From Phycisphaerales bacterium (GTDB lineage Bacteria > Planctomycetota > Phycisphaerae > Phycisphaerales > UBA1924), in assembly GCA_007694925.1 (NCBI GenBank), contig REET01000128.1, forward strand, positions 1-38,617: 38,617 nucleotides of DNA, read 5' to 3'. The position numbers were made by a program, and so were the translations under genes. This document shows positions 3,129-25,356 of this stretch, piece after piece. Numbering within the stretch: position 1 is the stretch's first letter; the number at the start of each line of letters is the position of its first letter. The notes beneath the pieces were generated by a model. The model was not told where the DNA came from, did not search any database, and worked only from the letters and a program-made list of their open reading frames with translations.

Positions 3129-4055
3129 TCAGGCCGGGCTGCCGACGCCCGCGGCGATCGAGTCCAAGAGCGCCTTGGCCTCCTCGGCGTCGGGGTGCCC
3201 GCCGGCGGTGAAGATCAGCCGGTGGGCCGCGATATCGGTCAGGTTTTCCAGCACATCCTCGGGGATCACATAGTCGCGATTGTGGATCATCGCCGTGGCG
3301 CGAGAAGCCTGCGCCAAGGCGAGCGACCCTCGCGGGCTCAGGCCCACACGGATCGAAGGGTGGTTCCGCGTCGCGTCGGCGATGCGGACGATGTAGTCGA
3401 GGATCGCCCGGTCGACCTTCACCGCGTCGACCTGGTTCTGCAGATCGATCACCTCCGCCCGGTTCAGCACCGGCTTGAGCTCGGCCAGCACCCGCTGGGC
3501 GGGGCGGATCTCCAGCACGCGCAGCTCGTCTTCGGCGGAGGGATACCCCAGCTCGATCCGCATCAGGAACCGGTCGAGCTGGTTCTCGGGGAGCAGGTAG
3601 GTCCCCTCGAACTCGTATGGGTTCTGGGTCGCCAGGACCATGAAGGGCGGCTCCAGGGGGATCACCCGCCCGTCGACGGAGACCTGCTGCTCGCTCATCG
3701 CCTCCAGGAGTGCCGTCTGCGTCCGGGGCGTGGTCCGGTTGATCTCGTCGGCCAGCAGGATGTTGGTAAAGACCGGGCCCTTCTTCAGGACAAACTCGCC
3801 CGTCGCCTTGTCCAGCACGCTCACCCCCAGCACATCGCCGGGCAGAAGATCCGGGGTGAGCTGGATCCGGGTGAACGCGCAGTCGATGCTCCGGGCCAAA
3901 GCCGTCGCCAGGACCGTTTTTCCGACACCCGGCACATCCTCGATCAGGGCGTGGCCCCGGGAGAGCAGGCAGCAGATCAGCCGGTCGACCGCACCTTCGT
4001 TGCCCAGAAAGACTTTGGTGATGTTCTCCCGGAGTTCCTGGATCTTGTCCTGCAT
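3129..4055 (-). CDS. MoxR-family AAA+ ATPase
   Basis: Walker A-like GVGKT, Walker B LLADEINR, ATQNPYEFEGTYLLPENQLDRFLMRI, SPRGSLAL: typical MoxR. Confidence 0.95.
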   Translation of the reverse strand: MQDKIQELRENITKVFLGNEGAVDRLICCLLSRGHALIEDVPGVGKTVLATALARSIDCAFTRIQLTPDLLPGDVLGVSVLDKATGEFVLKKGPVFTNILLADEINRTTPRTQTALLEAMSEQQVSVDGRVIPLEPPFMVLATQNPYEFEGTYLLPENQLDRFLMRIELGYPSAEDELRVLEIRPAQRVLAELKPVLNRAEVIDLQNQVDAVKVDRAILDYIVRIADATRNHPSIRVGLSPRGSLALAQASRATAMIHNRDYVIPEDVLENLTDIAAHRLIFTAGGHPDAEEAKALLDSIAAGVGSPA

Positions 4056-10094: not shown

Positions 10095-10667
10095 TCAGAT
10101 CTCCATGACTTCCTTGGTCTTGGCGTCGACGAGCGTTTCGATCTCCGCCTCGTACTTCTTGACCAGTTCCTGGATCTCGTCCTTGAGGGTCTTGACCTCG
10201 TCCTCGGAGACCGGGTTGGTGTCGGACTTGGTCAGCGCGTCGGCGTGCTTGTTGGCGTCGCGGCGCAGGTTGCGGACGACGACCTTCTGCTGCTCGCCGA
10301 CCTTCTTGCAGTGGGCGGCGAGCTGCTTGCGCCTGTCGCTGGAGAGGGCGGGGATGTTCAGGCGGATCTGCTTGGCCTCGACGACGGGGTTGAGCCCAAG
10401 ATCGCTGTTTTCCAGGGCCTGGCGGATCGCGCCGACCGAGCCGGCGTCGAAGGGCTTGATGAGGATCTGCGAGGGCTCGGGGACGCTGATGGCGGCGAGG
10501 GACTTCAGCTCGGTCATCGAGCCGTAGTAGTCGACCTTGACATACTCGACCAGCGCGGTCGAGGCTCTGCCTGTGCGCATGCCTCTGAGCTCGTCGCGGA
10601 GGTGCTCGACTGCCTTGCTCATGCCCTCCTCGGTTTCGAGGAGGATGGTGTCGGGGTCGGTGCTCAT
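10095..10667 (-). CDS. frr: Ribosome recycling factor
   Basis: MSTDPDTILLETEEGMSKAVEHLRDELRGMRTGRASTALVEYVKVDYYGSMTELKSLAAISVPEPSQILIKPFD...; canonical RRF. Confidence 0.97.
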   Translation of the reverse strand: MSTDPDTILLETEEGMSKAVEHLRDELRGMRTGRASTALVEYVKVDYYGSMTELKSLAAISVPEPSQILIKPFDAGSVGAIRQALENSDLGLNPVVEAKQIRLNIPALSSDRRKQLAAHCKKVGEQQKVVVRNLRRDANKHADALTKSDTNPVSEDEVKTLKDEIQELVKKYEAEIETLVDAKTKEVMEI

Positions 10668-10758
10668 GGCTCTGCTCCTAAGCGTGCGGGCCCCCTGCGG
10701 CCCGGTCGGGATCATACGCGTTTGTGCTGCGGTCGATCGGAAGTTCTGCGCCGTCGGT

Positions 10759-11532
10759 TCAGGAGATCCCCGCCGGCGGGCGGTCGGCGTTGTAGACGAG
10801 CGTGCCGAGGCGCTCGCCGGCGACCATGCGCCGGATGTTGCCCGGCCTCTTGAACTCGAAGATGACGACGGGGATCGCCTGCTCCTGGCACATCGCCAGG
10901 GCGGTCATGTCCATGACGCGGAGGTTCTTGGCCATCGCGTCTGCGAAGGTCAGGCTGTCGTAGCGTTCGGCGGTCGGGTCGAGCTTGGGGTCGGCGGAAT
11001 AGACGCCGTCGACCTTGGTCGCCTTGAGCAGCACATCGCAGTCCAGCTCGCGGGCTCTGAGGGCGGCGCAGGTGTCGGTGGTGAAGAAGGGGTTGCCGGT
11101 GCCGGCGGCGAGGATGACCACGCGCCCCTTCTCCAGGTGCCGGATGGCCCGGGCCCGGATGAACGGCTCGGCGACGGCCCGGACCTCGATCGCCGACATC
11201 ACGCGGCTGTCGATCCCGATGTTCGTCAATGCCTCGCGGAGGGCCAGGGCGTTGATGACCGTCCCGAGCATGCCCATGTAGTCGGCGGTCGCCTGGGCGA
11301 CATCGCCGGACTTTGCAAGCTCCGCCCCCCGGATGATGTTGCCCCCGCCGACGACGACGGCGACCTGGACGCCCTGGGTCGCGGCCTCCTTGATCTCGCC
11401 GGCGATGAGTTCGAGTTCGTCCGGATCGACGCCGAAGCCCGGCGCCTTGCAGAACGCCTCGCCGGAGAGTTTCAGGAGAACCCGCTTGAACGGCCGATTT
11501 TCGGGATCCTGAGCGGGCTGGGCGTCGGACAT
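10759..11532 (-). CDS. pyrH: UMP kinase
   Basis: FKRVLLKLSGEAF...VGGGNIIRGAELA...GTGNPFFTTDTCAALRA...KATKVDGVYSADP: canonical PyrH. Confidence 0.97.
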   Translation of the reverse strand: MSDAQPAQDPENRPFKRVLLKLSGEAFCKAPGFGVDPDELELIAGEIKEAATQGVQVAVVVGGGNIIRGAELAKSGDVAQATADYMGMLGTVINALALREALTNIGIDSRVMSAIEVRAVAEPFIRARAIRHLEKGRVVILAAGTGNPFFTTDTCAALRARELDCDVLLKATKVDGVYSADPKLDPTAERYDSLTFADAMAKNLRVMDMTALAMCQEQAIPVVIFEFKRPGNIRRMVAGERLGTLVYNADRPPAGIS

Positions 11533-11677: not shown

Positions 11678-12730
11678 ATGGCCAACCTTACGCGACAATC
11701 CGGATCGCCGCAGGATGCGGCGGCCAACGAACCGGTCCAGCGACCGGCAGGTGGCCCGTCGGCAGGGCCCGCGGGAGCGGCGTCTGCTGTTCCACCCGAG
11801 GACTTTAAGGAGCGAGCGGTCCGCTACCTCAAGCGGGCGTCGGTGGTCGGCGCGGTCGCGACCATCGCGCTGCACCTGCTGCTGGCGATCGTCGCGGCGT
11901 TGATCGCGATTCAAACCCCTTCGGGGCAGATCGGCGGGGCGCCGGGCGAGCAGGTCTTCGAGCTGGCGGTGATGAGCCAGTCGGAGCTTGACGCGAATGA
12001 GGCCGAGGCGCTCTCGTTGGCCGAGCCGAGCGTCGAGATTTCCGAACAGGCGGACGCCGCGGAGATCCCGGCGCTCGACGATCCGGCGGGCATGGACCTT
12101 GCCTCGGACCTGGCGGACCTTGCGACGCTGAGCCAGAGCGGCTCGGGCGGCGGGAGCGAGGGGGTCGGGGGGTTCGATGTCGGGGGCGCGGGCGAGGGGG
12201 CTGCGAGCTTCCTGGGCGTCGAGGCGAAGGGGCGGAGGTTTGTCTTCCTCGTGGATATCTCCGGCTCGATGATGGGCCCGAGGATCGAGGCGCTGCGGCG
12301 TGCGCTCAAGGAATCCGTCGACGCGCTGGACGAGCGGGCGGAGTTCATCATCGTCCTGTTCTGCCACGAGGCGAGCGTGCTGGGCGGCAGGACACGCTGG
12401 CTCCGGGCCGACAGGTCCGGCAAACGCTGGGCGGAGCGGGCGATCGACACCATCCAGGTCTACGGGGGCACCAACCCGCTGACGGGCTTTGAGATCATCT
12501 TCACGCTCAGCCCGAGGCCCGACGCGATCTACTTCATGACCGACGGCATCTTCGCGGAGGCCGAGGCGGACGCGATCATCGCCCAGAACCGAAGACCGAC
12601 GATCCCGGTGCACGCGATCTGCTTCGAGGACCGCTCGGGCGAGGCGATGATGCGCAGGATCGCGGAGATGTCGGGCGGGACTTACACCTATGTGCCGCTG
12701 GACCGTTCCGCGGGCGGGGGTGGGCCTTGA
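11678..12730 (+). CDS. TM-anchored von Willebrand factor type A (vWA) domain protein
   Basis: N-terminal TM LKRASVVGAVATIALHLLLAIVAALIAIQT; vWA with complete-looking MIDAS (FLVDISGSM, GGTN, MTDG). Confidence 0.9.
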   Translation: MANLTRQSGSPQDAAANEPVQRPAGGPSAGPAGAASAVPPEDFKERAVRYLKRASVVGAVATIALHLLLAIVAALIAIQTPSGQIGGAPGEQVFELAVMSQSELDANEAEALSLAEPSVEISEQADAAEIPALDDPAGMDLASDLADLATLSQSGSGGGSEGVGGFDVGGAGEGAASFLGVEAKGRRFVFLVDISGSMMGPRIEALRRALKESVDALDERAEFIIVLFCHEASVLGGRTRWLRADRSGKRWAERAIDTIQVYGGTNPLTGFEIIFTLSPRPDAIYFMTDGIFAEAEADAIIAQNRRPTIPVHAICFEDRSGEAMMRRIAEMSGGTYTYVPLDRSAGGGGP

Positions 12731-13947
12731 AGCGGCCCTCGCAGCGTTTCTTAGAGCGGGCGGTGGCGGCGGGTTTGTTTGGCCTCGCGCTGTCGGCGGG
12801 CGCGGGCGTGCTCGGCGCCGAGCCTCGGGAAGAGGCGGGCGTCGCGGAGGCTTCGGATATCGATCGGGCCGAGGTGCGTCTGCTCGGCCGGGTCGAGCCG
12901 CTCTTGGGCAAGGTCGAAGAGGCTTCGTTCGAGGCGCTGTCTCTGCGTGTAGATGGGGCGACGGTCGAGATCGGCTGGGACCGCGTCGTCCGCATGAGCG
13001 GGCCGGGCGCCGAGAAGGCTGCTGAGTTTCTTGAGCTGGCCGAGAAGGCGTGGCGTTCGCGCCAGCGTCTGGAGCGGGGCGACTTCGTGCTCGCCGAGGC
13101 CGGGTTCGAGGAACTGTTCGGCGTGTACGCCGGGCGGCTGGGGCCGACGGCGCAGGCCGTGGCGGAAGGGGCGCTGCGTTGCAGGCTGCGTCGTGGCGCG
13201 CACGCGTCGGCGATCGGGCCCTGGCTGATGCTGCTGCAGGCGGGTGGCGGGGGGCGGCCGGTGTTCGATGGCGTGCCGGCGGTGGTCGACCCCGAGACGG
13301 GGCTCTGCCCGGCGATCCCGCCGATCTGGACGGAGACGACCGGCGTCCGCCAGCTCGCAGAACGGGGGATCACCCTGCCCTCGGGCGTCGAACCGACCGA
13401 CGAGCGTGCGGCGCTGCTGGGCGCTTGGTACCGCTATGCCGCGTCGGCGACCGTTGGCGAGCGGCAAGACCGGCCCAGCAATAGCGACGATCCGAGCGTG
13501 CGGCTGATCGCCGAGCTGGTGCTCGCCCAGCACGGGACGGGCGTCGAACGCTCCGAGAACAGAGATCGCCTCCGCCAGAGGCTGGATCGATCGCGCGCCG
13601 GGCGGGCGCAGACGCCCGCGTGGCTGGAGGCGTGGATCTACGCGGCGATCGGGCGATCGCTCGTGCGTGAGAACGACGAGGCCGAGCGGCTGCGTGGTGT
13701 GGTGACGATGCTGCACCTGCCGGCGAGGTTCGCCGACGAGCAGCCGTTCCTCGCGGGGCTCTGCCTGGCCGAGGCGGCCGAGGCGATGGACGAACTGGGG
13801 CGGGGCGAGACCGCGGGTCTCTTGCGGGCCGAGCTCCGCAGGAGGTACCCGGGCCACCCCGCGGGTGATGATGCCCCGAACGGCCGAGGGCCGATCCGTG
13901 GCGTGACGATGAACAGCCCCCGAGCCGGGGGCGGACAGGACCATTGA
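12727..13947 (+). CDS. Secreted hypothetical protein in vWA/ExbBD operon
   Basis: Signal peptide-like N-terminus (AVAAGLFGLALSAGAGVLGAE); overlaps the vWA gene by 4 nt and ExbB by 1 nt. Confidence 0.8.
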   Translation: MKRPSQRFLERAVAAGLFGLALSAGAGVLGAEPREEAGVAEASDIDRAEVRLLGRVEPLLGKVEEASFEALSLRVDGATVEIGWDRVVRMSGPGAEKAAEFLELAEKAWRSRQRLERGDFVLAEAGFEELFGVYAGRLGPTAQAVAEGALRCRLRRGAHASAIGPWLMLLQAGGGGRPVFDGVPAVVDPETGLCPAIPPIWTETTGVRQLAERGITLPSGVEPTDERAALLGAWYRYAASATVGERQDRPSNSDDPSVRLIAELVLAQHGTGVERSENRDRLRQRLDRSRAGRAQTPAWLEAWIYAAIGRSLVRENDEAERLRGVVTMLHLPARFADEQPFLAGLCLAEAAEAMDELGRGETAGLLRAELRRRYPGHPAGDDAPNGRGPIRGVTMNSPRAGGGQDH

Positions 13948-14681
13948 TGAACCGGATGCTGATCGCGGCGAACACCGACGCGGAGGGGGGCAAGACGCTC
14001 CTGGAGTACATCCAGAGCGGCGGGGGGATCGGGTATGTGATCATCGCGCTGTCGCTCTTTGCCGTCGGGCTGATCGTGGCGCAGCTCGTGCGTGTGCGGA
14101 TGGAGCGGATGGCCCCGCGCGACTTCGTGCTCGGGCTGGACGCCAGGCTCCGCAAAGGGGATGTGAGGGGCGCGATCGAGTTCTGCTCCCAGCCCGACAA
14201 CGAGTCGTTCCTCTCGCGGGTGTTCCGTTCGGCGCTGACGCGGTGCGCCCGTTCGCCGTTCGGTTTTCTTGAGCTCAAGGGAGCGCTCGAGGAGTCTGGG
14301 CAGATGGAGGTCTCCCGCCTGCAGCGATCCAACGACACGATCGGCGTGGTCGCTTCGATCGCGCCGATGCTCGGGCTGTTGGGCACGGTCGTTGGCATGG
14401 TCGGGGCGTTCGACACGCTCAGCGCCGCCGAGGGGGTCGCCAAGCCCGACCGTCTCGCGGGCAGCATCTCCACGGCCCTGATGACCACCGTGATGGGGCT
14501 GCTGGTCGCCATCCCGTGCACCGCGGCGTACGCCTATCTGCGTGGGCGGATCGACACGCTGGCGTCCAAGGTCGCGGAGGTGACCGAGGAGCTCGCCCAG
14601 CACCTGGACCAGAACGCGGCCCGCAAGCCGAGGCCGGGCACGCCGCCCGCGCAGGCGCCGCAGAGGGGCGAGCCGCGGTGA
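13947..14681 (+). CDS. MotA/TolQ/ExbB proton channel family protein
   Basis: IAPMLGLLGTVVGMVGAFDTLS and LAGSISTALMTTVMGLLVAIPCTAAYAYL: ExbB/TolQ core. Confidence 0.95.
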   Translation: MNRMLIAANTDAEGGKTLLEYIQSGGGIGYVIIALSLFAVGLIVAQLVRVRMERMAPRDFVLGLDARLRKGDVRGAIEFCSQPDNESFLSRVFRSALTRCARSPFGFLELKGALEESGQMEVSRLQRSNDTIGVVASIAPMLGLLGTVVGMVGAFDTLSAAEGVAKPDRLAGSISTALMTTVMGLLVAIPCTAAYAYLRGRIDTLASKVAEVTEELAQHLDQNAARKPRPGTPPAQAPQRGEPR

Positions 14682-15112
14682 ACTTTGTCCAGCGGAAACC
14701 CAGGAAGGTCGGGGGGTTCAACATGACCCCGATGATCGATGTGGTCTTCCAGCTCATCATCTTCTTTCTGTACACCTCGCAGTTCACGACGCTGGTGCGC
14801 ACGCCCCTGGACCTGCCCGAGGAGCGGGGCGACCCGATGAGCGCCGAGCGTCCGGCGACGGTCGTGCTGGACATCGCGCCCGACGGGACGCTGCTGATCG
14901 AGCGTGAGCCCGTCGATCTCGCGAGGTTCGCCTCGGTGGTGCGGGCGGAGATCAACCAGGCCGGGGGCGACGCCTCGAAGGTCACGGTGCTGGTTCGCGC
15001 GGACCGTTCTCTCGACGCGGCGCACGCCAACCGCGTCGCCTCGACGCTCTCGGCGTTGGGGATCCGCGGCTGGAGGCTGGCGACAGAAGCGCCGGCGGGG
15101 GGCGGCCCTTGA
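14678..15112 (+). CDS. ExbD/TolR family biopolymer transport protein (copy 1)
   Basis: FNMTPMIDVVFQLIIFFLYTSQF; GTG start overlapping the ExbB stop (GTGA). Confidence 0.93.
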   Translation: MNFVQRKPRKVGGFNMTPMIDVVFQLIIFFLYTSQFTTLVRTPLDLPEERGDPMSAERPATVVLDIAPDGTLLIEREPVDLARFASVVRAEINQAGGDASKVTVLVRADRSLDAAHANRVASTLSALGIRGWRLATEAPAGGGP

Positions 15113-15528
15113 AGTTCACGCGTGAACACAAGTACGACGACGAGGAGGGCGTGCAGCGCCACATGACCAGCATGATCGATGTGGTCTTCCTGCTGCTGAT
15201 CTACTTCATCCTCACCGCCTCGTTCACGATGCCCGAGGAGGATCTGGCGTCGGGGCTGCAGGCGGAGGCGGAGGGGCCGTCGAGCGCAGCGGATCTGTTG
15301 CCGATGATCGTGACGGTCGATCGCGACAACGGTCGGACGCTCTACCGCCTGGGCGAGCGGGCCTCGGAAGACCCCGAGGCGATCGTCGCATGGCTGACGC
15401 CGCTTCCCAAGGAGGGGGGCGTGTTCGTGCGGGTGACGGATCGGGCGTCGGTCGACGCCGCGGCCAAGGCCCTGAGCGCCTGCAAGAGGGCGGGCTTTAC
15501 GAAGGTGAGCTATGTGCCCGCGGACTGA
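15109..15528 (+). CDS. ExbD/TolR family biopolymer transport protein (copy 2)
   Basis: HMTSMIDVVFLLLIYFILTASF; TTG start overlapping the copy 1 stop (TTGA). Confidence 0.92.
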   Translation: MKFTREHKYDDEEGVQRHMTSMIDVVFLLLIYFILTASFTMPEEDLASGLQAEAEGPSSAADLLPMIVTVDRDNGRTLYRLGERASEDPEAIVAWLTPLPKEGGVFVRVTDRASVDAAAKALSACKRAGFTKVSYVPAD

Positions 15529-18217
15529 CATCCGGACGCACGCGTGGCTCGCGCCGCTGGCGGCGCTGCTGCTGATTGCGCCGTTCGGCTTTGCGCAGGA
15601 GCGTGAGGCCGAGCCGGTCCGCGTCTCGCCCGACGATCGGGTCGAGTCGTTCCTCGAACGCCTGGGCATCGAAGACCTGATGATCGTCCAGCTCCGCGAC
15701 CGGCTCGGGCGTGCGCCCGCGAGCGATCGGCCGGAGATCGCCGAGCGCCTCGGACGCCTCTACGCGATCCAGATGCGCGAAGCGCGGAGCTCCGAAGAAC
15801 GCGAGCGGCTCCTCGCGGCCTCTTACGACATCCTCCGCGAGATCCCAGACCAGGACCACCACCCCCTCCGCGTGATGATCGAGCGGACCCGCTACCTCGC
15901 GGCGGAAGAGATCGCCGAGCGCTGGCGCGTCCGCCTCGCGACCGACCAGGAGCGGGAGGAGGCGGTGCGTTCGCTCCGCGAGGCACGGCGCGGGTTCGCG
16001 GCCATCGCGTCGTCGGCATCGCGACGCATCGACCAGCTCGACCGCCTCGAGCAGCGAGGCAGGGGCGAGGATGTCGAGCACATCCGCGAGCGCAGGACCG
16101 AGGTCGCGGCGATCCACTCAGAGGCCAGGTTCTTCGCCGGCTGGAGCGAGTACTACCTCGCGATGATCCTCGGGAGCTCGCAGTCGGCGACGGCTGCGCT
16201 CCAGGAGTTCGGTTGGCTGCTGGGCGCGCCCGACGGGCGGATCCCTACGCTCGAACGCCTCTCGCGCGACATGCTCGCAAGGGAAGTGGTCGCCAGGGCC
16301 GCGATCGGCGTCGCGCTGGCGTACGCCGTGAGGGGCGACGACGCCGACGCCGTCGCGTGGCTGGACACGATCGAACGCCACCGGGAACTGCCCGATTCGA
16401 TCCGCGCCTCGCTGTTCGAGCGGCGTCTGAGCGTCCTCGCGTCGACGCGTCCTCGCTGGGCGAGGGTCGAGCAGCTTATTGACCAGAGGCTTGCCGCGGC
16501 CTCGCGCGAGTCGAAGCCGCCCTTCTCCGTCCGCGAGGCGAGGCTGCTGACGGTGCTGGCGCTCGAGGCGGTGGAGGCCGACGCGCCCGACCCGCGCCTG
16601 TCGACGCTGATCCTCAAGCTCGCGGAGATCGGGATCGGTGAACTGATCGCGATGGGCGAGATCGGGCAGGTGCTCGACCTCGTCGACCGCTACGCGGGCA
16701 CGCCGGTGATCGGCGAGGGGTTCATCGCTCGCTATGTCGAGGGGCTGCGCGCGTACGAGGAGGCCGAAGCGCTCGCCGCGGCCGGCGACGAAGCGATCGA
16801 GAGCGCCGCGACACGCACCGCCTTCCGCGACGCGGCGCGTGCGCTCGAGCGTGCACTGGTGACCGACGACGCCGAGAACTTCGAACGCGAGGCGATGTCG
16901 GCCCGCCAGCGTCTGGCCTTCGCGTACTTCCGCGCGGGCGAGTACCTGCAGGCGGCCGACCGGTTCGAGCGGGTCTTCCGCGCCGAGCCCGGCGAGCCCC
17001 TGCGCGAGGAAGCGCTCTGGAACGCGGTGCTCGCGCTGGAGCGTGCGGCCGAGATGCCCGGCGCCGGCGTCGACCGGCGATTGCGCACACTCGCGACGCT
17101 CTACATCGGCGAGTACCCCAGGCGCGAGCGGGCGGCGGTCCTGCTCGTCCGGCGCACCGCGGGCGATTCGGCCGACCCGATCACCGCCGTCGAGACGCTG
17201 CTGGCGGTCGATCGTTCGTCGTCGCTGCGCCCCGTCGCAGAGCGCCAGGCCGCCAACCTGCTCTACAGGGTGTACCGCGACAGCTCGGGCGCCGAGCGCG
17301 AGTTCGCCGCGTCGAGGTTCCTCGAAATCGCCGAGGGCGTTGTCGAGCACGAGCGCCGCGCGATGCGCGACGCGACCGGATCGGGCCTCAACGAGCACGG
17401 CACCCGCGCCGCGATCGTGCTGCGCCAGATGCTCGACGCCATGCTCGCGGCGGAGAACCCCGATCCCGCCCGCGCCCGGCGCTCGCTGACGATGCTCCGC
17501 GAGATCGTTTCGATCGCGGGGGTCGACAGCGCGCCGTTCGCCGACGAGCTGCTGTACCGCGAGGTGCAGATCGCGCTGGCGGAGGGGGATGTCGAGTCGG
17601 CGAGCGAGGCGGGACGGCGCCTGCGCCAGGGGGACCACCCGCTGGCCGAGGCCGCCGAAGGCCTGCTCTTCCGCGACGCTTTGGCGAGGTTCCAGCGCGA
17701 TTCGGGCGACTTTCAGGCGGGGCGCGAGGCGGTCGAGTCCGGGCGGAGGCTGCTCTCGATCTCGATGGCCAAGGGCGGGGGGCCGGGCGACCGCCAGTTC
17801 GCCGCGATCTCGGCGCGCGTGGCCGATGTCGCCGCGACCCTCTGGCGCGAGCGGGCCGATGAACAGATGCGAGACACGGCGCTGGAGGTCGACGGGCGGC
17901 TGGTCGACGCGGGCCGGGCCAGCGCCACGACGCTGCTGCGCTTCGCCGAACTCGCCGAAGCCGCAGAAGAGCACGAGCGGGCGCTCGACGCTTGGCGCAG
18001 GCTTTTGACCGGCCTGGACGCGAGCTCGCCCGACTGGTTCCGGGCCCGCCACGAATCGATCCGGCTGCTGATGCGCACCTCGCCGGAGCGCGCGGCGCTC
18101 GTGATGGACCAGCACAAGGCCCTGCACCCCAACTTCGGCCCCGAGCCATGGGGCGAACGGCTGCGCGAGCTCGACCGGCGCCTCGACGCCTTCCGCAGCG
18201 GCGGGGGGGGCGGCTGA
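15512..18217 (+). CDS. Large secreted alpha-helical (TPR-like) protein, 901 aa
   Basis: Signal peptide MCPRTDIRTHAWLAPLAALLLIAPFGFAQ; helical-repeat-like composition; 17-nt overlap with ExbD copy 2. Confidence 0.85.
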   Translation: MCPRTDIRTHAWLAPLAALLLIAPFGFAQEREAEPVRVSPDDRVESFLERLGIEDLMIVQLRDRLGRAPASDRPEIAERLGRLYAIQMREARSSEERERLLAASYDILREIPDQDHHPLRVMIERTRYLAAEEIAERWRVRLATDQEREEAVRSLREARRGFAAIASSASRRIDQLDRLEQRGRGEDVEHIRERRTEVAAIHSEARFFAGWSEYYLAMILGSSQSATAALQEFGWLLGAPDGRIPTLERLSRDMLAREVVARAAIGVALAYAVRGDDADAVAWLDTIERHRELPDSIRASLFERRLSVLASTRPRWARVEQLIDQRLAAASRESKPPFSVREARLLTVLALEAVEADAPDPRLSTLILKLAEIGIGELIAMGEIGQVLDLVDRYAGTPVIGEGFIARYVEGLRAYEEAEALAAAGDEAIESAATRTAFRDAARALERALVTDDAENFEREAMSARQRLAFAYFRAGEYLQAADRFERVFRAEPGEPLREEALWNAVLALERAAEMPGAGVDRRLRTLATLYIGEYPRRERAAVLLVRRTAGDSADPITAVETLLAVDRSSSLRPVAERQAANLLYRVYRDSSGAEREFAASRFLEIAEGVVEHERRAMRDATGSGLNEHGTRAAIVLRQMLDAMLAAENPDPARARRSLTMLREIVSIAGVDSAPFADELLYREVQIALAEGDVESASEAGRRLRQGDHPLAEAAEGLLFRDALARFQRDSGDFQAGREAVESGRRLLSISMAKGGGPGDRQFAAISARVADVAATLWRERADEQMRDTALEVDGRLVDAGRASATTLLRFAELAEAAEEHERALDAWRRLLTGLDASSPDWFRARHESIRLLMRTSPERAALVMDQHKALHPNFGPEPWGERLRELDRRLDAFRSGGGGG

Positions 18218-21069
18218 TGCCCAGCAGAGGCTACGACGCACCGGCGAGGAGGTTTCTCGGCGAGAAGGCGGTGGGCGCAGGGCCCTTCGGCCTGCTCGCG
18301 CTGCCCATCGAGCCCGCCGATGAAGACACCGTCTTCGAGGCGCTGGAGCGGCGCCTCGCCGAGATCGACCGCCACCCCCACGCGCAGACGCCAGAGGCCG
18401 ATGATGCCCGCCTGGCGCTGCACGCCGCGGCGGCCCAGCTCATGGACCCGCAGGTGCAGCGGGCCCTCTTGGAGCGCTGGTCGGAGGGCGCGGGCGAAGA
18501 AGATGTCGGCGAGATGATCGATTACGAGCTGCAGCGTCAGGCGATGCTGCTGCTGGCCGGCGGCGCCCACAACGCTTCGGCGCTGCACCGGCTCTCGCTC
18601 TTGGCGCAGACGCACGGGATCCCTGTCGAACGCCTGGTCGAGTCGATCGTCCACGCCGACGCATCGCCGCAGCGATCCGCGCAGCAGCACGATTCGGCGG
18701 AGACGCCCGCAGACGGGGGCGATTACGACGAAGAGGATCAAGAGAGCAACACCGACAGCCCCGGCGTGACGCCTCCGCCCGCGTGGATGGACGAAGCGCA
18801 CCGCCCGGGCTCTGTCGGGCAGGTGATTCTGCTGTTGGGCGTCGCGGTGGTGGGGCTCGGGGCGATCGCGGCGGTCTCGGTCGTGTTGCTCGCCGACCGT
18901 CTCGGTTCGGCCATTCCCCAGCAGCAGCCTCAGCAGGCCCAGACGACACAGCAACCCCCGCCTGAGGCGCCACCGCCGAGCCCGACCACGGGCGCAGCGA
19001 CGGGGCGCGAATCGGTCAACGGGCAAACCGAGCGTCCGCCGCCGCCCCCCGTGCCCAACGCGACGGAGATCCGCTCGATGCTCGCCGACGCGGCGTCGAT
19101 GCTCGAACTCGACGCCCAGGCCGCGTCGACGGAGTTCCGGCGTGCGGTCGAACTCGCGTCTGCGCACTGGCTGGACCACCGCGCCGACCAGCGCGTCGCG
19201 ATCCGGGCGGAGGTCGTCGGGTTTGTCCACCGCGCCGGCTCGTGGCCCAACGCCTCGTCTCGGGCGATCGGTGCGATCGCCGAGCACCTCGATGTGCTGC
19301 GCGCCGAGCGGGCGCCGGGCGAGGTCGAGATGCGACGCGCCGTCTGGGCGTCGGGGATGCTGGCGCGCCTGCGTTCGGACCGGGACCTGCCCGCCTCGGC
19401 GCGCCTGGCGATCGATGAGGCGCTCGTGGGCGTGGGGGCCGACGCCGGCTTCGCTTCAGGCGCGGGGTTCGAGCGAGGGGCGATGGCCGGGGCGTCGCGT
19501 TTGGGGCTGAAGATGTCGATCGCGGCCCCGCCTTCTTCCAGAGAAGACGGGGATCGGGAGATCCGCGCGTGGGAGGCGTGGCTGGCCTGCATCGAGGCGC
19601 TGGAGCCAACGCCCGGCACGCAGCGCGACAGGGTCGTCCTCGGCGCGCTCGACGCGATCATCTTCGCCGGGGGCGAGGGCGAGCGGGCGAGGGCCGGCGT
19701 GCACGCGGTACGGCTGCTCGCCCCGGAGGTCCGCTGGGGCGACGGGTCGGAAGCGAGGCTCTGGCTGCTGCGGATCGCCGGCTCTGCTCGCGCCGACGCG
19801 ACGCTGGTGCGCACGCTGATGCGGGCGCTCTCTGAACGAGCGCCGGACAGCATGGTCGGCCCGGCGCAGATCCCCTCGGCGCAGGCGATGCAGGCGGACA
19901 GGGCGAGGATCCGAGAGTCCCTCGCCAGGCTGTGGGGGCTCGAGCAGGCCGAGCGGGCCGACGAACTCGGCTACTCGCTGGCGGGGTATTCACGGAACTT
20001 CATCGAGCGGTCCGAGGGCGCGATCGCTCCGCAGGACCACCTCGCCTCGGCCGCGGCGCTCGCCAGGCTCAACCTCGCCTCGGCGCTGCGCTTTGCCGGC
20101 CGGTACGACGAGGCGGGGATGGTGCTGCAGCAGACCGATCGGGTCATCGAGACGGCGCGATCCGGATCCAGGCCGTGGCGCCTCGACGGGCTGTTCGACT
20201 ATGGGCGCGACGAGCACCGCTGGGCGCTGGCGTATCTGCAGGTCGGCCGGCGGGTCGACGCGCGCGTGGCGATGCTCGAAGAGCTCGGGCGGAGCCCGCA
20301 CTACCTGGGCTGGGCCGAGGCGGACATCGTCGTTGCAGAGGCGCTGCGGGGCGATTCACCGCGAGTGCGCATCGCGGCGGGGCAGGTCGTCGAGCGCGTC
20401 GTGGGCCAGCCCCGCGTGGTCAACGCGTTCCTGGAGGTGCTGCCCGACGCGCCGCTGACCCGGCGGAGCGCCGAACTGATCGAGATGGCCGCGAGCGAGA
20501 TGCTGCCCCGCCCCGACGACCCTTCGTTCATGTTCGAGGCGAGGCGGGCGATCGTGCAGCGGCTGCTGCAGATGGCTTCGGAAGAACGCGAGGGCGTGGC
20601 GCTCGACCGGTTGTCGGCGATCGTCGCCGAGGCGTACGCCGAGATCAGCGCCATCGACGACCCCGAGGACGAGATCTCGCTGGGCGACAAGCCCAACCCG
20701 ATGGACGGCGCCGAGCTGCTGCACCACTACTGGCTGTCGCTGGCGAGGCGGGCGCCCTCGTCGGCGATCGCTTCGGTGCCCGGGGGCCTGACGCCCGGAT
20801 CGATCGACGCGCGGATGAACGCGAGGCTGAATCTCGCCGACGGGCCGGTGCAGGCCTTCCTGGCGTACCAGATCGCGATCTGCGAGGCGATGGCGCTGGT
20901 CGTCTCCGCCGAGCGTCCGGGCGTGTCGCCGGAGGTCGAGGCGGTGCTGGCGCAGTTCGAGGACGAACGCCGTGCGGCGGGGCATGTGCTCGAACAGGTC
21001 GCCGCGTGCGAGCGGGCCATGGCCAGGCTCTGGCGCATCAGGCTCGATCTGATCGGAGGCGGAATGTGA
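18217..21069 (+). CDS. Large bitopic membrane protein: cytosolic J-domain-like N-terminus, TM, Q/P-rich linker, long helical C-terminus (950 aa)
   Basis: ATG in TGATG overlap with the previous stop; TM GSVGQVILLLGVAVVGLGAIAAVSVVLLADRL then PQQQPQQAQTTQQPPPEAPPPSP. Confidence 0.82.
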   Translation: MPSRGYDAPARRFLGEKAVGAGPFGLLALPIEPADEDTVFEALERRLAEIDRHPHAQTPEADDARLALHAAAAQLMDPQVQRALLERWSEGAGEEDVGEMIDYELQRQAMLLLAGGAHNASALHRLSLLAQTHGIPVERLVESIVHADASPQRSAQQHDSAETPADGGDYDEEDQESNTDSPGVTPPPAWMDEAHRPGSVGQVILLLGVAVVGLGAIAAVSVVLLADRLGSAIPQQQPQQAQTTQQPPPEAPPPSPTTGAATGRESVNGQTERPPPPPVPNATEIRSMLADAASMLELDAQAASTEFRRAVELASAHWLDHRADQRVAIRAEVVGFVHRAGSWPNASSRAIGAIAEHLDVLRAERAPGEVEMRRAVWASGMLARLRSDRDLPASARLAIDEALVGVGADAGFASGAGFERGAMAGASRLGLKMSIAAPPSSREDGDREIRAWEAWLACIEALEPTPGTQRDRVVLGALDAIIFAGGEGERARAGVHAVRLLAPEVRWGDGSEARLWLLRIAGSARADATLVRTLMRALSERAPDSMVGPAQIPSAQAMQADRARIRESLARLWGLEQAERADELGYSLAGYSRNFIERSEGAIAPQDHLASAAALARLNLASALRFAGRYDEAGMVLQQTDRVIETARSGSRPWRLDGLFDYGRDEHRWALAYLQVGRRVDARVAMLEELGRSPHYLGWAEADIVVAEALRGDSPRVRIAAGQVVERVVGQPRVVNAFLEVLPDAPLTRRSAELIEMAASEMLPRPDDPSFMFEARRAIVQRLLQMASEEREGVALDRLSAIVAEAYAEISAIDDPEDEISLGDKPNPMDGAELLHHYWLSLARRAPSSAIASVPGGLTPGSIDARMNARLNLADGPVQAFLAYQIAICEAMALVVSAERPGVSPEVEAVLAQFEDERRAAGHVLEQVAACERAMARLWRIRLDLIGGGM

Positions 21070-21971
21070 TGCGGCTGATCGCGGCGATGCTTGTGCTGGT
21101 GCTGGTCTTCCCCGCAGGGGCCGAGACGCCCGATGCGCTCGGGCCCTGGGCAGAGCGGCTCGCTTCGCTCACGCCGGACGATCCGGCCGAGTACTTCGCG
21201 CTGGCCGAAGAGATGGCGGCGTTGGCCGAAGACGCCGATCGCAGGGACCGCGAACTGCTCGCGACAGCGCGCCGGCTCTTCGTGCTCGCCTTCGAGCTGG
21301 GCAGGGCGCGGGGAGACTCGGGGCTGAGCGCCAGCGCCTGCATCGGGCTGGCGGCGCTGGCGACCGACGAGCGCGAGCGCCGTTGGCTCCGCGCTCTGGC
21401 GGCGGCGATGGACCCGCGTCACGGCACGCCCGATTGGTCGCGCGTCGATCCCGGCGCCCCTTCGCCCCGGATCGCGCTCCGGGCTGCCGAGGCGATCGGC
21501 CATGTGCGTGCCGGCAACGGGCGCGCCGCACTCGCCCTGTTCGACGACCCGAGCGTGCTCGCCGCGCTGTCGAGGCACGACCGCTTGCTGCACCCCTTTG
21601 GGGCGCGGGGCGGGCTGTTCGACTTGCAGCGCGAGGCGAGGCTCTGGCCCTGCCCCGAGTGCCGCAACACGAGGCTGTCGCGCGATGCACGCGGGCGTGG
21701 GGCTCTCTGCGGGACCTGCAGTGGGGACCCCGGCCCGGACATGACGCCCGACCTGTATGTCGCCCATCTGCGGACTGAGTTCGCCCTGCTCAACGCCGAG
21801 CACGCGACATGGTCCTCACAGCTCGCGACCGACGGGGGGACGCCCCTGCGCGACCCCGATCCAGAAGAGCTCGCCTCGGCGATGCGGATCGACCCCGCCC
21901 GGACGGTTTTTCATGACGGGCGCTGGGTCCGCCCGGATCGCGCCGAGCCGGAGCAGAATCCCGGCCCCTGA
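21069..21971 (+). CDS. Secreted protein with four-Cys zinc-ribbon-like motif
   Basis: ATG in TGATG overlap; signal peptide MRLIAAMLVLVLVFPAGAE; CPECRNTRLSRDARGRGALCGTC. Confidence 0.8.
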   Translation: MRLIAAMLVLVLVFPAGAETPDALGPWAERLASLTPDDPAEYFALAEEMAALAEDADRRDRELLATARRLFVLAFELGRARGDSGLSASACIGLAALATDERERRWLRALAAAMDPRHGTPDWSRVDPGAPSPRIALRAAEAIGHVRAGNGRAALALFDDPSVLAALSRHDRLLHPFGARGGLFDLQREARLWPCPECRNTRLSRDARGRGALCGTCSGDPGPDMTPDLYVAHLRTEFALLNAEHATWSSQLATDGGTPLRDPDPEELASAMRIDPARTVFHDGRWVRPDRAEPEQNPGP

Positions 21972-23387: not shown

Positions 23388-23839
23388 CACATCGACTCCA
23401 GGACGCTCAGCAGTTCGAGCGTGAACAGGTCGGCTTCGCCGTAGGACTCCAGCGCCGTCGATTCGGCGTGGAGTGCGTTCAGGCGGTTGTCCAGGGGGTC
23501 GCTGAGCATCGACTCCAGCGAGAGCCAGAGGTCCATGTCGGCCGCGACGGTCGCCATCACGGGCGTCGGTGTTCCGATCTGTTCGCCCGGGCGGACGCTG
23601 ATGACAAGGGCCGCGACCCCGATGAGCAGGGCCAGGCAGGCCGCCAAGGCGCCGAGGCGCGACGCCCACGCCGGGCCGATTCGCGCGACCACCGCGGGGC
23701 GTTCGGCACGCAGGCTCGGGGCCGAGGCCTCGGCGATGCGCGACGCCAGGCCCGGGGGCGTCGCGTCGCGTTCGAGAGCGCCGAGCGCGTCGAGGCGTTC
23801 TTCCAGCGGCGTCTTCGGTTGTTCTTGCTCACGGGTCAT
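23387..23839 (-). CDS. Putative anti-sigma factor, single TM
   Basis: Cytosolic N-terminus, TM RLGALAACLALLIGVAALVISV; overlaps the ECF sigma gene by 4 nt. Confidence 0.75.
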   Translation of the reverse strand: MTREQEQPKTPLEERLDALGALERDATPPGLASRIAEASAPSLRAERPAVVARIGPAWASRLGALAACLALLIGVAALVISVRPGEQIGTPTPVMATVAADMDLWLSLESMLSDPLDNRLNALHAESTALESYGEADLFTLELLSVLESM

Positions 23840-24456
23840 GACGCGTGCTCCGCGTTTGGGTGTTCATCCGGTTCGCCGAGCACCTTGCGGAGCTTGGCGA
23901 GGGCCCGGTGGTGGCGGGCCAGAAGCGTGCCGAGGGGTTCCTGCAGCACCTCGGCGATCTGCTTGAAGGTCAGGCCCGCGTGGTGACGCAGGTGGACGAT
24001 CTCACGGTCGGCCTCGTTCAAGGCTTCGAGCGCCTCGCGGAGGCGGGCGAGGTCGGAGGGCAGCCCGTCGCGGTCGCCCGGGCCGGGGCGTGTGTCGGCC
24101 CCCGCGTCGAGCGTTGAGGGGTCGACTGGGGAGGCCTGGCGTTTGGCTCTCCGTGCGTGGTCGCGGAAGCGGTTCATCGCGACCCTGAAGAGCCAAGCCT
24201 CGAAGCGGCCCCGCTCGTCGTACCCGCCCGCCCCGAGTTTTTCCGCCATCGTCACGAACACGGCCTGGGTGATCTCCTCGGCGAGGTCGTCGTCGCGGCA
24301 CCGGCTCCGCACCAGCGCAAAGACCCGGGGGGCGTACGACGCGACCACGCACCGCCACGCCCCTTCGTCGCCGCCGGCCGCTCGGGCGAGCAGCGACGGG
24401 TCATCGGGGGCCGGGGCGGGTCTCGCGCTTCCAGAACTCATCGCGACCCCCGACAT
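23836..24456 (-). CDS. ECF-family RNA polymerase sigma factor
   Basis: LARAAGGDEGAWRCVVASYAPRVFALVRSRCRDDDLAEEITQAVFVTMAEKL (sigma2) and LNEADREIVHLRHHAGLTFKQIAEVLQEPLGTLLARHHRALAKLR (sigma4). Alternative start at 24441. Confidence 0.93.
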   Translation of the reverse strand: MSGVAMSSGSARPAPAPDDPSLLARAAGGDEGAWRCVVASYAPRVFALVRSRCRDDDLAEEITQAVFVTMAEKLGAGGYDERGRFEAWLFRVAMNRFRDHARRAKRQASPVDPSTLDAGADTRPGPGDRDGLPSDLARLREALEALNEADREIVHLRHHAGLTFKQIAEVLQEPLGTLLARHHRALAKLRKVLGEPDEHPNAEHAS

Positions 24457-24702
24457 CTGCTGTGCACAACGCCCGGGCAGGCGTCGTATTGCACCCCGGC
24501 GCTGCGCGTCGGTCCGAAGCGGATATCGGCCGAAAGTGTCGCCAATGGCGGGCCTCCTGAGGCGTCGATCCCTCCCGCCGGGTACAACTGGGACCGGAAG
24601 AAACAAGGACCGACCGTTGTTCGATAAATGGTAGTAACCGCGGCGTTCCTTCCCTTTAGTCCGGCCCCACGAACGACTCCCGACGCGGGGCCCTGCGAAC
24701 CG

Positions 24703-25356
24703 ATGGATTCTGTACGAGTGGGCCAGACCACCGACGAGCAACTGTTTGAACGCTACCGGGCGGGGGATACGGAAGCTTTCCGGACCCTCATCGAGCGTTA
24801 CCACGACGACCTGTACAGGTTCCTGTACCGGTTGCTGGGTGATCGTGTCGCCGCGGAGGATGTCTTCCAGGAGGCGTTCCTGCAGGTGCACGTCTCGGCG
24901 CACAGTTTCGACGCCTCTCGACGTTTTCGGCCCTGGCTCTTTACGATCGCGGCGAACAAAGGGAGGGACTACCTGCGTAAGAAGGGCCGGCGGCAGACGA
25001 TGGATCTGTCCGCCCCGGTTTCCGGCGATGACGGGTCTCGCGGGGCCACCTTTGTGGACCTCATGAAGATCGACACCCCCTCGCCGGACGCCGGGCTCGA
25101 CAAGCAGGAAACCGACAGGCTCGTACAGGCGGCTTTGGGCCGGATGAGCCCGACACTCAGGGAGATCCTTCTCTTGGCTTACTTCCAGCGGCTCAGCTAC
25201 GCCCAGATCGCCGAGGATCTGGGGATCCCGCTGGGGACGGTCAAGTCCAGGCTCCACGCCGCGGTGGCGAGCTTCGCCGGGCACTTCGAGCGGGTCTCGA
25301 AAGAGGCCGGGCTCGGCCCCGGGGGCGAGGATGTGTTCAGGAGCGACAGCCGATGA
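24703..25356 (+). CDS. ECF-family RNA polymerase sigma factor
   Basis: LFERYRAGDTEAFRTLIERYHDDLYRFLYRLLGDRVAAEDVFQEAFLQVH and LREILLLAYFQRLSYAQIAEDLGIPLGTVKSRLHAAV. Confidence 0.95.
   Translation: MDSVRVGQTTDEQLFERYRAGDTEAFRTLIERYHDDLYRFLYRLLGDRVAAEDVFQEAFLQVHVSAHSFDASRRFRPWLFTIAANKGRDYLRKKGRRQTMDLSAPVSGDDGSRGATFVDLMKIDTPSPDAGLDKQETDRLVQAALGRMSPTLREILLLAYFQRLSYAQIAEDLGIPLGTVKSRLHAAVASFAGHFERVSKEAGLGPGGEDVFRSDSR

Follow-up and report, generated by a model that had tools for sequence, protein, structure and literature searches.

Here we describe an eight-gene operon of a Phycisphaerales bacterium that, judging from its sequence, probably specifies a vWA-type force transducer that acts across the envelope and is driven by the proton motive force. 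The operon lies on contig REET01000128.1 (assembly GCA_007694925.1), of which the whole stretch of 38,617 nucleotides was analysed and is referred to as the window. To our knowledge, the only proton-driven force transducers that are understood are Ton, Tol and a few relatives. The genes of the operon and its two flanking genes are as follows.

10098-10715: frr, flank outside the machine, found in 59/80 loci
10762-11532, minus strand: pyrH, flank outside the machine, divergent neighbour in 74/80 loci
11678-12730, plus strand: putative vWA force transducer, 350 aa; likely start ATG 11678
12727-13947, plus strand: sec406, secreted LSm-barrel/TPR-like protein, 406 aa; likely start TTG 12727
13947-14681, plus strand: ExbB/TolQ-type proton channel subunit, 244 aa (PF01618, 2e-28); likely start ATG 13947
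14678-15112, plus strand: ExbD/TolR-type subunit 1 (PF02472, 8e-20); likely start GTG 14678
15109-15528, plus strand: ExbD/TolR-type subunit 2 (PF02472, 1e-14); likely start TTG 15109
15512-18217, plus strand: P901, secreted TPR solenoid, 901 aa; likely start ATG 15512
18217-21069, plus strand: P950, bitopic helical-solenoid protein, 950 aa; likely start ATG 18217
21069-21971, plus strand: secreted zinc-ribbon protein, 300 aa; likely start ATG 21069

The gapless run of eight genes proposed for positions 11678-21971 by a first-pass annotation is borne out: all eight frames are open, with GC3 of 0.86-0.92 and codon-position G+C typical of the genome, and the genes overlap by 1-17 nt at their junctions. 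In relatives, the median junction gap is -4 nt at five junctions and +3 nt between sec406 and ExbB. The 17-nt overlap of ExbD2 and P901 (15512-15528) is conserved as well (median -17 nt, 54 loci); overlaps are otherwise usually 4 nt. Pfam assigns to the operon proteins a vWA domain, one MotA_ExbB domain and two ExbD domains; sec406, P901, P950 and the zinc-ribbon protein match no Pfam family above cut-off. These parts and their order, like the motif, active-site residues and distribution described below, are read directly from the sequences.

The first gene product consists of a cytoplasmic N-terminal tail, a single TM helix (residues ∼55-78), a low-complexity linker (∼80-175) and a C-terminal vWA domain (Pfam VWA_3, 3e-14, residues 188-337). 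The vWA domain contains a full MIDAS (D193/S195/S197/T265/D289), which is invariant in 81/81 vWA proteins. The TM helix carries T62-x3-H66, with His66 present in all 79 aligned N-termini and position 62 occupied by Ser in 77 and Thr in 2 of them, and the rest of the helix is variable around these two nearly invariant positions. Ser-x3-His is likewise found in 11/11 distant planctomycete vWA proteins. The same spacing separates S16 and H20 in TonB, and S18 and H22 in TolA. Since the helix thus carries the TonB/TolA-type docking core, the locus appears to encode an energy transducer, namely the vWA protein. The earlier claim that the locus has no TonB/TolA-like protein is therefore right for the TonB C-terminal domain only (no PF03544 match), and it fails for the docking helix. 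PMC12204202 gives SHLS as the motif for motor binding by TonB and TolA; the Leu and second Ser of this motif are not kept in the vWA helix, with A/S at +11 and a variable residue at +15. The helix was also considered as an ExbD-like pore helix, as in the second vWA family described in PMC12204202, and this was rejected because it contains no Asp and the operon already has two ExbDs. The two docking residues are immediate targets for point mutants, in a class for which no phenotype is reported.

The motor genes retain the residues expected of a proton channel. T147 and T181 of ExbB are invariant in 63 homologues, and the proton-site Asp21 of ExbD1 and Asp24 of ExbD2 are each invariant in 61. 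The best match of the operon ExbB is TolQ. From these features we infer docking, force transmission, partner contacts and an envelope role along the following lines. ExbB (expected to be a pentamer) and the ExbD1/ExbD2 pair would form an inner-membrane motor powered by protons, and the vWA protein would dock beside it via the Ser/Thr-x3-His TM helix, like TonB and TolA. The flexible linker would carry the motion to the periplasmic vWA domain, which may bind and release the LSm-TPR, TPR, bitopic solenoid and zinc-ribbon scaffolds through metal-dependent MIDAS contacts. In genomes where no motor genes lie beside the vWA gene, its product would make use of an ExbBD that has been relocated, or of a paralogous one.

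The AlphaFold2 model of sec406 (pLDDT 88) consists of a signal helix, a five-stranded Sm/LSm-like barrel (48-91) and a TPR-like helical array, and TPR matches are seen among members of its family. The barrel resembles Hfq/LSm folds in Foldseek searches (probability ∼1, with weak E-values of 0.3-1). Assignment of sec406 to a known protein was rejected, as no structure matched over its whole length (best E 0.24). P901 is a TPR solenoid, with profile matches to designed CTPR proteins (1e-4) and TPR Pfam domains in family members. P950 is modelled as all-helical (AlphaFold2, pLDDT 84), with a TM segment at 200-228, a disordered linker and a periplasmic helical solenoid of 660 residues (282-942). 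Its cytosolic helices (22-89) fit a J-domain-like pattern and have a fairly conserved HP in place of HPD. The sole PDB profile match of this N-terminal domain is DnaJ2, weak at E=1.4, and the DnaJ Pfam is found in 2/44 proteins at 0.03; no J-domain protein is among the matches listed for the full-length fold search. The zinc-ribbon protein has a helical N-terminal part and the motif C195xxC198..C214xxC217, of which the Cys residues are 86-98% conserved in 58 homologues, while W248, W286 and E47 are invariant.

A single scan of genome contigs with the vWA protein yielded 80 Phycisphaerae loci, the frames of which were searched with the window proteins. The partners recovered are sec406 (77 loci), ExbB (62), P901 (72), P950 (64) and the zinc-ribbon protein (58), with many contigs ending early. 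Across these loci the operon genes share a strand throughout, and their order is almost always kept. The first-pass annotation had named a lack of co-conservation of the ExbBD genes with those for the vWA and large proteins as an outcome that would undo its reading, and this did not occur. The divergent upstream pyrH is always on the minus strand, and the conserved pyrH-frr neighbours place the operon at a constant site in the chromosome. P901 matches are present in 93/392 genomes of the phylum, many of them weak and of TPR type. Strong full-length matches are concentrated in the family of the window, its order and one distant family. In the family of the window, P901 is found in 30/31 sampled genomes and in 24/24 of those of good quality. 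The complete eight-gene order recurs in the distant planctomycete family (L170, L171), and reduced sets are found in others (L184, L189). In the distant-family genome that carries the full operon L171, a second, more diverged vWA-sec406-ExbB-ExbD-ExbD-P901 set is present (L173:8784-15153). A Phycisphaerales-type operon is also found in a record titled 'Cyanobacteria bacterium' (L073), which groups with L054 (support 100) and is probably a mislabelled bin. Viral carriage of the operon was rejected, as no relatives were found among viral contigs.

The motor genes are separable from the rest of the operon. In 13/75 readable loci, ExbB, ExbD1 and ExbD2 are missing between sec406 and P901, while vWA, sec406 and P901 remain, as do P950 and the zinc-ribbon protein where the contig extends that far. 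sec406 and P901 then overlap by 4 nt (8/9 motorless loci measured), or are fused into one open frame at the site of the missing motor (L040:10449-14531, L046:10982-15013). The persistence of the other genes, and the way in which sec406 and P901 have come to overlap by 4 nt or to fuse, would suit an envelope assembly complex of vWA, TPR and solenoid proteins that works without a motor, with ExbBD as an optional energiser. We consider this unlikely, since Ser-x3-His is kept in 11/11 of the vWA proteins from motorless loci for which the TM region could be read, an operon-type ExbB-ExbD-ExbD set is found elsewhere in 5/13 motorless genomes (L095, L101, L113, L117, L118), and other ExbB paralogues are present in all of them. 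In 7/13 motorless genomes no operon-type motor was found, and every ExbB there scores like an outside paralogue; the remaining genome (L043) is counted in neither the five nor the seven. The ExbBs of the five relocated motors nest within the operon ExbB clade and form one clade on the ExbB tree (SH-aLRT 85); the vWA+P901+P950 tree scatters those genomes. In L118, the relocated set (L118:3973-5782) is separate from the vWA operon and has an ftsH-like gene and molybdopterin-biosynthesis-like genes close by. Most simply read, the transducer of motorless genomes continues to be driven by a motor supplied in trans. The proposal of the first-pass annotation that an ExbBD motor is coupled to vWA and helical periplasmic proteins thus gains from gene order, fixed location, docking motif and co-occurrence, and is weakened by the 13 loci at which the motor is absent in place. 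These natural motorless variants with the docking residue kept offer a direct test of whether ExbBD motors are interchangeable between transducers.

The motor-driven vWA transducer shares ExbB, ExbD and a transducer TM helix with Ser-x3-His with the Ton system, but has two different ExbDs, a vWA domain in place of the TonB C-terminal domain, and no receptors in the operon. The docking motif and ExbBD would allow the vWA protein to open an outer-membrane channel for import of nutrients or macromolecules, as TonB does, and planctomycetes reportedly take up large polymers. Such a role is rather unlikely, as the operon lacks an outer-membrane barrel or receptor, is fixed by pyrH-frr rather than near transport genes, and belongs to a family in which Plug is found in only 4/31 genomes, with none found in the genome of the window itself. 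TonB_C is found in 2/31 family genomes, both matches being weak, and Omp85 in 28/31. TolB_N (PF04052) was found in 0/31 family genomes, although the Pfam model may miss a divergent planctomycete TolB. With P901 in 30/31 and Omp85 in 28/31 of these genomes, against these low counts of TolB_N, TonB_C and Plug, the machine appears to be core to a diderm family in which standard Tol and Ton parts are mostly not found. Its near-universality there, together with the failure to find TolB and the rarity of TonB-receptor plugs, makes the operon a good candidate for energising the outer envelope.

Resemblance to Tol-Pal lies in the best match of ExbB to TolQ, a core, chromosomally fixed operon and a TPR protein (compare CpoB); the operon differs in lacking TolB and Pal, and no OmpA-family match is present among its eight proteins. 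Because the operon is near-universal in the family and receptors are absent, we tentatively favour a Tol-like envelope role, in which the machine might serve anchoring or constriction at the outer membrane or cell wall, and not TonB-receptor uptake. That the Phycisphaerales vWA machine took over the core trans-envelope job of Tol-Pal, with a modular motor that was moved or lost and a paralogous motor swapped in, is a more doubtful suggestion.

The operon is not the only transducer of its genome. The assumption that the genome has no other Ton-like transducer was rejected, as contig C22 (L197:2031-3720) contains a gene for a TonB-like protein, which has an SLALH helix and a Pro/Glu-rich linker but no Pfam TonB_C match, accompanied by an ExbD-like gene and a short ExbB-like one. 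Contig C132 (L194:9698-11345) contains a further ExbB-ExbD-ExbD set without a nearby transducer gene, which is possibly a shared motor.

The core of the machine is not undescribed, contrary to part of the first-pass annotation, because PMC12204202 (Mol Biol Evol, June 2025) had proposed, for the PVC group including Planctomycetes, a class in which an SHLS-bearing vWA force transducer is encoded next to TolQ, a pair of TolRs and a TPR protein. There, the vWA transducers are modelled with AF3, their function is given as not known, and only 'many' are said to carry SHLS. Compared by description, the Tichowtungia-type transducers likewise have one TM helix with Ser-x3-His, a low-complexity linker and a C-terminal vWA domain, and their neighbourhood likewise includes a TolQ-like gene, two different TolR-like genes and a TPR gene. 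The vWA gene is first in the operon described here, whereas it is downstream of the TPR, tolQ and two tolR genes in that account. Relative to the Tichowtungia type as described there, a second TPR-type protein, with an LSm-like barrel, the 950 aa bitopic solenoid, the zinc-ribbon protein, and the motorless and fused forms are additions. A literature search found no later work on the vWA transducer class. As far as could be found, the vWA-first eight-gene operon, with its LSm-TPR, bitopic and zinc-ribbon partners, fixed locus and motorless forms, is therefore new, and to this extent the claim of novelty stands.

A gliding-related role is suggested in PMC12204202. On such a reading, an Agl-Glt-like gliding or adhesion machine would use the motor to move vWA/TPR complexes and so displace the cell, and the make-up of one ExbB, two ExbDs and TPR proteins does recall Myxococcus Agl-Glt (one TolQ, two TolRs, TPR scaffolds and a vWA adhesin). 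Here, by contrast, the transducer is a membrane-tethered vWA protein with a docking helix, no Glt or Agl homologue is found in the operon, and near-universality in the family points to a core function and not to one tied to lifestyle, so that gliding is quite improbable. Homology to GltA-K was rejected, the only match being to the low-complexity linker of GltJ (E=0.046, 12.8 bits where the cut-off is 450).

The surroundings of the operon contain several other genes of interest. A MoxR-like ATPase gene lies at 3132-4055 and is seen again in 26 loci, which would fit a Bat/MoxR-type vWA chaperone operon. This reading is extremely unlikely, as the ATPase is ∼7 kb away, beyond pyrH-frr and on the other strand, and the operon itself contains ExbBD, a vWA protein with one N-terminal TM helix and no protein matching DUF58. 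On the other side of the operon, a gene at about 23836-24300 (minus strand) is sigma-factor-like by sequence alone; after it come a short gene and one for a Glu/Arg-rich protein, the latter present in 16 loci. Another sigma-factor-like gene, with ECF sigma Pfam matches, is present on the opposite strand at 24628-25353.
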